A DNA stretch of 61,282 bases from Armatimonadota bacterium (lineage in GTDB: Bacteria; Armatimonadota; Zipacnadia; UBA1398; JAKPQA01), in contig JAKPQA010000250.1 of assembly GCA_029547025.1 (NCBI GenBank), positions 1 through 61,282 on the forward strand, given 5' to 3'. Every line of letters begins with the position of its first letter. Position 1 is the first letter of the stretch. This document shows, piece after piece, positions 54,437 through 56,565 of the stretch. Under the pieces are notes generated by a model, which was given only the letters and a program-made list of their open reading frames with translations, was not told where the DNA came from and did not search any database. The position numbers and the translations under genes are program-made.

Positions 54437-55150
54437 ATGCGACGAAGAGGATTTACGCTCATCGAACTTCTTGTGGTTATCGCGATTATCGCGATTCTTG
54501 CGGCCATCCTATTCCCCGTGTTCGCCAAGGCGAGAGCCAAGGCACGCCAGTCCTCGTGTCTGTCCAATGTGAAGCAGATCCTGCTGGCCTTCGCCCAGTA
54601 CGCTTCCGACAACGACAGCTGCTATGGTGCCTGGCCCACGCGGTGCTGGGGCCAGGGAGACTATCCGCCGTTCCACGCACAGCTCATGCCCTACTGCAAG
54701 AATGCGCAGATGTTCGCATGCCCATCCCAGACGCGCGACAGCTACTTCAACGGGTGCTTCAACGCCGCGTGGTATGTGCCTTTGGGCTATGGCTACAACG
54801 AGTACATTGGGCATGCCGGAATGGGGACGTCCTCCGGTGCCATCCGTGAGGACACCTGGAAGGTGCCCGCCCAGACTCTGCTCGTGGCCGATTCCATGTG
54901 TGGCATGATCTGGGGGACCAACAACGCGGGTGTCATCCACCGCGTCGCTTGGCCCGACCACGACAACATGGGCGGTGCCTGGTGCAATATGATTAATAAT
55001 GCACCGAACACCCTGGAGCGGTACACCCGGCACAACGGCGGATCGAACATCGGGTTCATGGACGGACATGCCAAGTTCCGCACCGCCCTGCAATGCAAGC
55101 AGTATCCGTGGGGCGATATCGTCGTGGACAACGGCCAACAGCCAACGTAG
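54437..55150 (+). CDS. Type IV pseudopilin-like protein with H-x9-DG motif
   Basis: 237 aa with GGAGGG six bases upstream. The prepilin signal is [18 protein letters not shown], cleaved after Gly, with Glu at +5. The following [20 protein letters not shown] is characteristic of Armatimonadota-like pilins. The C-terminus has [17 protein letters not shown], the H-x9-DG motif of DUF1559-type secretion pseudopilins. It contains ten or so Cys in the mature part. Such proteins form part of a type II secretion-like or surface system. It is followed by a small lipoprotein gene 86 bases away. Confidence 0.93.
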
Positions 55151-55484: not shown

Positions 55485-55520
55485 ACTGCCCGGCGCCCCT
55501 TCGGGCGGGTGCCGGGCAGT
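55485..55520 (+). terminator. Strong terminator after the small lipoprotein gene
   Basis: A perfect 10-bp stem, ACTGCCCGGC/GCCGGGCAGT, encloses a 16-nt loop with its own short CCC/GGG pairing, followed by TGTG. It ends the pseudopilin-lipoprotein transcript and separates it from the RNA candidate that follows. Confidence 0.75.
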
Positions 55521-55581
55521 TGTGCCGTGTGGGGACAGAAAAGTGTCGAAAACCCCTCAAACGATCCCGGTCGGTGCGCGA

Positions 55582-55587
55582 TATACT
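55582..55587 (+). promoter_or_regulatory. -10 box (TATACT) before the structured RNA candidate
   Basis: TATACT stands about seven bases before the first stem of the RNA candidate. No convincing -35 box is seen 16-18 bases upstream (the closest is AAACGA), so an alternative sigma factor may be used. The orphan sigma-factor gene downstream would be one candidate. Confidence 0.45.
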
Positions 55588-55593
55588 CCTGTG

Positions 55594-55862
55594 AACGGTA
55601 CGGCTCCCCTGAGGGGAGCGCAACTCGATACCGCTGGTGGGGACCGCTCGGATGCCCCACCTACTAGCGCTGGTTCGGCACTGGAGTGATCTGGAACATG
55701 CGCGACGTTCCCGGCCAGCGCGGAAAGGACACCAGGGCCCATGACTACTGCGATCGATCGCACTATGGCCGACGGCACGCGAATGCCGTTGAGGCTCGAC
55801 CGACTACCCCGCATGTGCTCTAGCAGGCGGCTTCATCGCAAGGCTCCGCTAGACGCGGGTAG
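55594..55862 (+). ncRNA. Candidate structured RNA with at least seven stem-loops
   Basis: Between a terminator and a sigma-factor gene, this 269-base stretch folds into a chain of perfect or near-perfect stems. They are CGGTA/TACCG (55596-55633) around GCTCCCC/GGGGAGC; GGTGGGG/CCCCACC (55636-55661); GCGCTGG/CCAGCGC (55667-55721) with inner GGAAC/GTTCC; a palindrome TGCGATCGATCGCA (55749-55762); ACGGCA/TGCCGT (55772-55789); and CTACC(C)CGC/GCGGGTAG (55804-55862) enclosing TCTAGC/GCTAGA. A -10-like box precedes it. It matches no tRNA, tmRNA, RNase P, SRP or riboswitch signature that I know. A 62-codon frame (55741-55929) crosses it but ends in low-complexity sequence. It could be a regulatory small RNA or a leader of the sigma-factor gene. 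Confidence 0.5.
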
Positions 55863-56016
55863 TTCGAATCTCATCGCGGACCGGCGCCCGGGTGTCCCAC
55901 AAGCCCTTCTCGGTCCCCCAGCGGAGTAGCCGCGGGGACCCCCCTCCGGGTCACTCGGAACCACCGGGCCGCAGACCAGACGACAGGCCCAGGTTCGAGA
56001 GAGTGAGTGACCCACG

Positions 56017-56565
56017 ATGAAGTCCACGGTACAGCGTGCCCGAGCCGGCGATCCCGAAGCCCGCGAAGCAGTGGTGCGGTGCCTGACGTCCCGGGTGAAC
56101 TCCTGCAGCCGATACTACTCACGCCGCTGCGGCGTTGATGTCGACGACCTGCGCCAAGAGATGTGGCTCGGCATCTTCGAGGCCCTGCAGCGTGTCGATG
56201 TATCGATCGGCGACCCCGTCCAGTACCTGTTGTCACACGGCCGGTTCGCGCTCCTGACCTCCCTGCGCCGGCGCCAGAAGGACAACCCGGGGCCTGATGA
56301 GGCGGCCGAACAGGTGCCGGTGGATGGGTCCCTCGAGCGGTCCGTCATCGACGGCCAGGTCGTGCAGACCTTCGTCAGCTCGCTGGACACGACGGCCCAT
56401 CGCATCGTGTCGTGCCTGCTCCAGGGGCACTCGCGGTCCGAGACGGCCAAGCTGCTGGGGTGCACGCCGGCTAACATCACCTACCACCTGCGGCGAGTCG
56501 AGTCGAGCCTGAGCGCTCTCCTGGCCGCGGAAAGCCGAGCCGCCTACGCCGGCGGAGCCCGCTAA
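56017..56565 (+). CDS. Orphan sigma-70-family factor
   Basis: A 182-aa protein whose upstream bases are GAGAGTGAGTGACCCACG. Region 2 is RYYSRRCGVDVDDLRQEMWL then GIFEALQRVDVS, and region 4 is a helix-turn-helix, HSRSETAKLLGCTPANITYH. The middle linker is longer and more charged than in most ECF factors, and no anti-sigma gene follows. It could be controlled by the structured RNA upstream. It is convergent with the GH5-like gene. Confidence 0.75.
   Translation: MKSTVQRARAGDPEAREAVVRCLTSRVNSCSRYYSRRCGVDVDDLRQEMWLGIFEALQRVDVSIGDPVQYLLSHGRFALLTSLRRRQKDNPGPDEAAEQVPVDGSLERSVIDGQVVQTFVSSLDTTAHRIVSCLLQGHSRSETAKLLGCTPANITYHLRRVESSLSALLAAESRAAYAGGAR

Follow-up and report, generated by a model that had tools for sequence, protein, structure and literature searches.

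The window analysed here, a 61,282-nt stretch of DNA from an Armatimonadota bacterium, carries on its plus strand, at 56017–56565, a gene for a 182-residue sigma factor preceded by a long leader. The product of this gene matches Sigma70_r2 above the Pfam cut-off and TIGR02937 (sigma70-ECF) at its cut-off score, while the Pfam matches to sigma4 fall under the cut-off; the ECF sigma factors found in the PDB span both domains of the protein. Its AlphaFold model (pLDDT 87.5) consists of two helical domains with a disordered linker, residues 95–108, between them. With sigma2 and sigma4 as its only domains and a length within the range of about 160–200 residues, the protein is of the ECF type. An adjacent cognate anti-sigma gene is usual, though not universal, for such factors, yet none follows the sigma gene in the window or in the listed relatives, the neighbours of which are diverse (judged from open reading frames, not all of them via Pfam). 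Both the reality of the sigma gene and its lack of a following anti-sigma gene, as given in the original prediction, are thus confirmed. Upstream of the leader lies a DUF1559/N-methylation prepilin-like gene of the FPVFAKAR type (54437–55150), ordinary in Armatimonadota. The elements of the locus are as follows.

55556–55562, plus strand: divergent −35-like element CTCAAAC (consensus TTTAGCA), 16 nt before the −10 element; the spacing fits, the hexamer differs
55579–55587, plus strand: −10 element CGATATACT of the sigma/leader promoter, fitting the family −10 C[GT]ATA
55594–56016, plus strand: 5′ leader RNA of the sigma gene, about 423 nt, start inferred; fold z −2.26
55603–55619, plus strand: perfect hairpin GCTCCCC-TGA-GGGGAGC near the 5′ end of the leader, from the sequence and the centroid structure
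55722–55729, plus strand: Shine-Dalgarno sequence GGAAAGGA of the leader uORF; relatives use GAAAGGAGG in the same role
55741–55929, plus strand: putative leader uORF, 62 codons, a length that fits its class (34–64 codons in relatives)
55884–55894, plus strand: candidate antiterminator strand GCGCCCGGGTG, beginning 46 nt before the uORF end (class position −32 to −44)
55948–56013, plus strand: long imperfect hairpin before the sigma start, with outer stem GGGTCACTC/GAGTGACCC and inner stem CCGGGCC/GGCCC
55962–55972, plus strand: candidate terminator-arm strand CACCGGGCCGC, at +32 from the uORF end
56017–56565, plus strand: ECF-type sigma factor gene, 182 aa (sigma2 and sigma4), identified by Pfam/NCBIfam, a family HMM score of 217 bits, AlphaFold and PDB matches

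The 5′ part of the leader had drawn attention as a dense series of stems. Five non-overlapping perfect stems of at least 5 bp are present in 55594–55862, compared to 2.2 ± 1.2 in dinucleotide shuffles, a count attained by 2.5% of the shuffles and by 8.8% of all 269-nt tiles across the GC-rich window. The stems are real and modestly above chance, but seven consecutive ones, as originally described, were not confirmed, and the view that they would not be expected even with high GC was too strong. For the mechanism proposed below, many of these local stems probably play no role. Folding of the entire leader (55590–56016, plus strand) yields a minimum free energy of −192.7 kcal/mol with a z of −2.26, whereas the minus strand of the same region is unremarkable (z −1.14). 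The absence of a known RNA class was borne out, with no Rfam family found at gathering scores in the window, at E ≤ 1 in the region, or in 20 related loci. The leader contains GTTCGA words that resemble a T-loop, although a search of it for tRNA and tmRNA found none. A nucleotide search with the leader DNA in 60 relatives returned the self-match only. As for the strong terminator that was described upstream of the stems, the hairpin at 55486–55519 is strong indeed, but it lacks a run of U residues, and a terminator scan detected none with a U tail.

A search with an alignment of 26 sigma homologs (E ≤ 1e-15) placed the family in 65 of 291 Armatimonadota genomes, normally with one copy per genome, and the score of 217 bits with the family HMM puts the sigma of the window clearly inside it. 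Its nearest homolog found (genome G005, locus L004) is 47% identical. A MAG named Chthonomonas calidirosea is among the carriers of the family, with its homolog at L080. The single protein had no match in the named collection but the alignment did; the matches are almost all from Armatimonadota MAGs, and the few that bear other names are weak. Judged from these searches, the homologs form a distinct, Armatimonadota-specific family of the ECF type, of which, and of its leader, no description was found in the open-access literature (most subscription journals lay outside that search). Two loci of one family of genomes, L012 and L021, have a gene for an RsgA-type GTPase directly downstream of the sigma gene, and in L012 a separate promoter motif accompanies the GTPase gene. 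On the minus strand of L004, a second open reading frame with a very strong Shine-Dalgarno sequence (AAGGAGGAGG) lies about 150 nt before the sigma gene and overlaps the sigma start by about 50 nt, which suggests translational coupling in that lineage.

Leaders were read upstream of the 65 homologs. They share a promoter, TTTAGCA-N16-C[GT]ATA, which is perfect in 34 of the 65, has at most one miss in 46 and at most two in 55; the score is at least 10 in 55 of 65, and the spacer is nearly always 16 nt long. The copy in the window is divergent: the −10 element, the 16-nt spacing and the uORF have been kept and the −35 element has changed. The −10-like box of the original prediction is present as CGATATACT at 55579–55587. 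The promoter as a whole scores 7.5, a value equalled by half of the shuffles, and its exact form TCAAAC-N16-CGATA has no second copy elsewhere in this genome.

Downstream of the promoter, after a median of 73 nt, the family leaders (median length 320 nt, compared to about 423 nt in the window) contain a Shine-Dalgarno-led uORF of 15–64 codons, with a median of 29. The best Shine-Dalgarno pairing is −9 kcal/mol or stronger in 47 of 55 leaders and in 6% of shuffles. In close relatives, the start, the Shine-Dalgarno sequence and the frame of the uORF are kept and the indels come in multiples of three, but the peptide changes freely, with nonsynonymous changes dominating, so what seems to count is that the uORF is translated, not which peptide results. 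A function that depends on the sequence of the leader peptide is thereby ruled out as a general rule. Tiny open reading frames with similar PAPxAGRR ends are nevertheless found in L161 (around 1620) and about 450 nt upstream of sigma in L015 (MEYVTPAPEAGRRR and LIKSLSPAPGAGRR, respectively), loci of two different families; both frames sit behind GGAGGTGGGTG and may encode a conserved leader peptide. In the window, the frame 55741–55929 could have proved to be a conserved protein instead of RNA; a Pfam search returned no match for it, yet it stands at the position of the Shine-Dalgarno-led uORF of the family and belongs to the system, so a part of the presumed structured RNA is probably translated. 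Its ATG follows GGAAAGGA at a somewhat long distance of 11 nt, and 87 nt separate its stop from sigma, compared to 92–126 nt in most relatives of the class and a longer distance in L004.

Between the uORF stop and the sigma gene, 32 of 57 leaders have a U-tailed hairpin of −14 kcal/mol or stronger, where 9.4 would be expected; such a strong terminator is absent from 25 of the 57. The end of the uORF is significantly complementary to the 5′ arm of the terminator in 11 of 38 loci (binomial P 1.7e-6), compared to 1–2 of 38 for the control regions (5′ leader, first half of the uORF and sigma coding sequence). Both strands vary between clades and still retain their complementarity. Such covarying pairs are CTCGTGGC/GCCACGAG, CTCGCGGCC/GGCCGCGAG, CACCTGGGC/GCCCAGGTG (in the closest relative of the window), CCGGCAGC/GCTGCCGG and CCGGTAGC/GCTACCGG, and the clade pairs CCTGCTCG/CGAGCAGG and CGGCGGTT/AACTGCCG are also still complementary. 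In most families, the antiterminator strand begins 12–22 nt ahead of the uORF stop, under the terminating ribosome. In the class to which the window belongs, this strand is located 32–44 nt ahead of the end of the uORF, with the terminator arm 26–32 nt past that end; with the antiterminator about 40 nt before the stop, a ribosome that terminates there might by itself fail to cover it. L004, the nearest relative of the window, retains both terminator and antiterminator in a leader that is also unusual. As read from the sequences, the anatomy of the family leaders is that of ribosome-mediated transcription attenuation. The suggestion of a cis-acting leader that controls the sigma gene has thus held up, with promoter, uORF, and terminator and antiterminator found in the same place in homologs across the phylum.

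We therefore regard it as likely that 55594–56016 is transcribed as the 5′ leader of this Armatimonadota-specific sigma gene of the ECF type and acts as a ribosome-mediated attenuator that senses stalled ribosomes. The dedicated promoter, TTTAGCA-N16-C[GT]ATA, probably recognised by the sigma factor itself, would start a leader with a short uORF. Ribosomes reaching the end of the uORF would cover the antiterminator strand, allowing the terminator downstream to form and keeping sigma silent, whereas an early stall or failed initiation would leave the antiterminator free to pair with the 5′ arm of the terminator, permitting read-through into the sigma gene. The sigma factor would then amplify its own promoter and switch on genes of ribosome rescue and drug efflux, such as hflX. 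Autoregulation, the direction of the response and an inducing signal in translation stress, by which the sigma factor is predicted to be induced, are what we infer from this arrangement.

The mechanism of the copy in the window is derived from that of the family, and its continued operation there is presumed. The place of the terminator in relatives is occupied in the window by the hairpin 55948–56013 (−33 kcal/mol, z −2.8, equalled in stability by 1.2% of shuffles), which has no U-tract and whose outer stem, GGGTCACTC/GAGTGACCC, spans the ribosome-binding region of sigma. The last step is therefore probably translational, through sequestration and release of this region, or else independent of a terminator. 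Alternatively, the copy may have decayed or been rewired, in which case the sigma factor would still belong to the family, attenuation by its leader would be lost, and the stems would be incidental structure of GC-rich DNA. The lost −35 element and the missing U-tract would agree with such a loss, as would the pairing of 55884–55894 with 55962–55972, which taken on its own is not significant (p 0.13–0.26), and a stem density modestly above that of tiles of the same window. We nevertheless consider decay unlikely, since the uORF has been kept with its Shine-Dalgarno sequence and class-typical spacings, the ribosome-binding site of sigma lies under a stable hairpin (z −2.8), and L004 keeps terminator and antiterminator, even if its leader is unusual too.

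The attenuator might also respond to one condition only, either scarcity of a particular aminoacyl-tRNA or a single nascent-chain ligand, rather than to stalling in general. Classical attenuators, such as those of trp and his, sense specific conditions of this kind and provide a precedent, the 3′ ends of the uORFs often have S-P-R-x-G-like codons, and endings of the form SWQV..PxPGDT recur in the class of the window. However, no run of codons and no peptide is common to the family, nonsynonymous changes dominate, and the element GCCTCGTTTCGG is read in two different frames (in L015 on one hand and in L020 and L045 on the other), which suggests selection on the RNA strand. The candidate targets are also genes of ribosome rescue and efflux, with no biosynthetic pathway among them, and a specific signal of this type appears improbable to us, more so than decay of the window copy. 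Least credible by far is a free-standing small RNA or a ligand-binding riboswitch that lies ahead of sigma by chance, to which the fold z of −2.26 and a uORF without a protein family match would lend themselves, but which is opposed by the lack of an Rfam match, by an RNA sequence that is unconserved even among relatives of the class and unmatched as DNA in 60 relatives, and by the persistence of promoter, uORF, terminator and sigma as the conserved unit; the free regulatory RNA of the original prediction is given up on these grounds.

The promoter motif was searched genome-wide in 40 sigma-positive genomes. Outside the sigma promoters, the count of matches was close to that of the reversed-pattern control and uninformative as proof of a regulon, so the regulon appears small and single matches may be due to chance. 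Matches are located upstream of hflX, upstream of mutS2 in several genomes and, in individual genomes, upstream of genes for RsgA-type GTPases, exporters of the MATE, ABC and MFS types, and GNAT acetyltransferases. A motif scoring at least 10 within 450 nt upstream of hflX was found in 13 of 42 sigma-positive and in none of 30 sigma-negative Armatimonadota genomes (Fisher P 4e-4, an approximate value because genomes within a family are not independent), and the score is at least 11 in nine of the 42. Promoter sharing with hflX thus joins the sigma family, its promoter, its uORF and the terminator/antiterminator pattern of the relatives among the features supported by sequence comparison. For mutS2, a good motif (at least 11) is present in four genomes, all of one family. 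With a motif in 1–2 of 28 cases, rqcH was ruled out as a core member. In the genome of the window, the family promoter was found upstream of none of hflX, mutS2 and rqcH. In both L149 and L171, the family promoter motif lies some 36 nt ahead of the start of a conserved protein that begins with MIIPI. In L162:1500–1830 (G055) and L161:1500–1800 (G046), genes for RsgA-type GTPases have the family promoter and a short Shine-Dalgarno-led uORF ahead of them, with a U-tailed hairpin in addition in L162 (ACCGCAGGCACAGCACATTGCCTGCGGTTTTTCG); genes of the regulon may therefore carry second attenuators.

ECF sigma factors with a cognate anti-sigma, such as SigE and CnrH, share with this family the sigma2 and sigma4 domains and probable autoregulation from a dedicated promoter. 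Unlike in those systems, no anti-sigma gene adjoins the sigma gene here, and the leader RNA appears to replace the anti-sigma as the off switch. WhiB7/WblC of Actinobacteria is an autoregulated factor behind a uORF attenuator, induced by translation-targeting antibiotics, and its regulon includes functions of drug resistance and HflX, which splits stalled ribosomes (PMC7157823). The present system resembles it in that one regulator gene would stand behind a uORF-based transcription attenuator and a promoter that is presumably positively autoregulated; hflX may belong to the regulon here as well, given the motif at this gene in 13 of 42 sigma-positive genomes, although not in that of the window. 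It differs in its phylum and in its regulator, an ECF-type sigma factor instead of an Fe-S protein of the WhiB type that acts together with the housekeeping sigma, and the induction of the Armatimonadota sigma by translation stress is a prediction. The rli80 attenuator of Listeria, which controls hflXr, likewise combines a short uORF, mutually exclusive terminator and antiterminator, and stalled ribosomes, and turns on a ribosome splitter of the HflX type (PMC6310831). In that case the attenuator acts directly on hflXr, whereas here it would act on a sigma factor whose promoter motif occurs at hflX, and a conserved RLR motif was not noticed among the Armatimonadota uORFs. At topAI-yjhQ of Escherichia coli, a uORF also serves as a sensor of translation stress, responding to several ribosome-targeting antibiotics, but what it controls there is a toxin-antitoxin operon, with no sigma factor (PMC12121999). 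The system described here thus works like the WhiB7 and rli80 attenuators and is a member of neither.

On a wider view, for which we see about even chances, the sigma factor would respond to translation stress across the Armatimonadota and be switched off by its own leader RNA, a uORF attenuator, in place of an anti-sigma protein; with a regulon of ribosome rescue (HflX, MutS2 and RsgA-type GTPases) and drug efflux, it would be an independently evolved sigma counterpart of WhiB7. If so, in many members of this little-studied phylum a short reading frame would detect blocked ribosomes, and a dedicated sigma factor would relay the signal. The logic of WhiB7 would then be found in another class of regulator, which would suggest that such circuits arose more than once. 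The promoter signature would serve for finding the regulon, the leader would represent an RNA-based alternative to anti-sigma control, and a function would be assigned to a hitherto uncharacterised sigma family, one identified purely from sequence.
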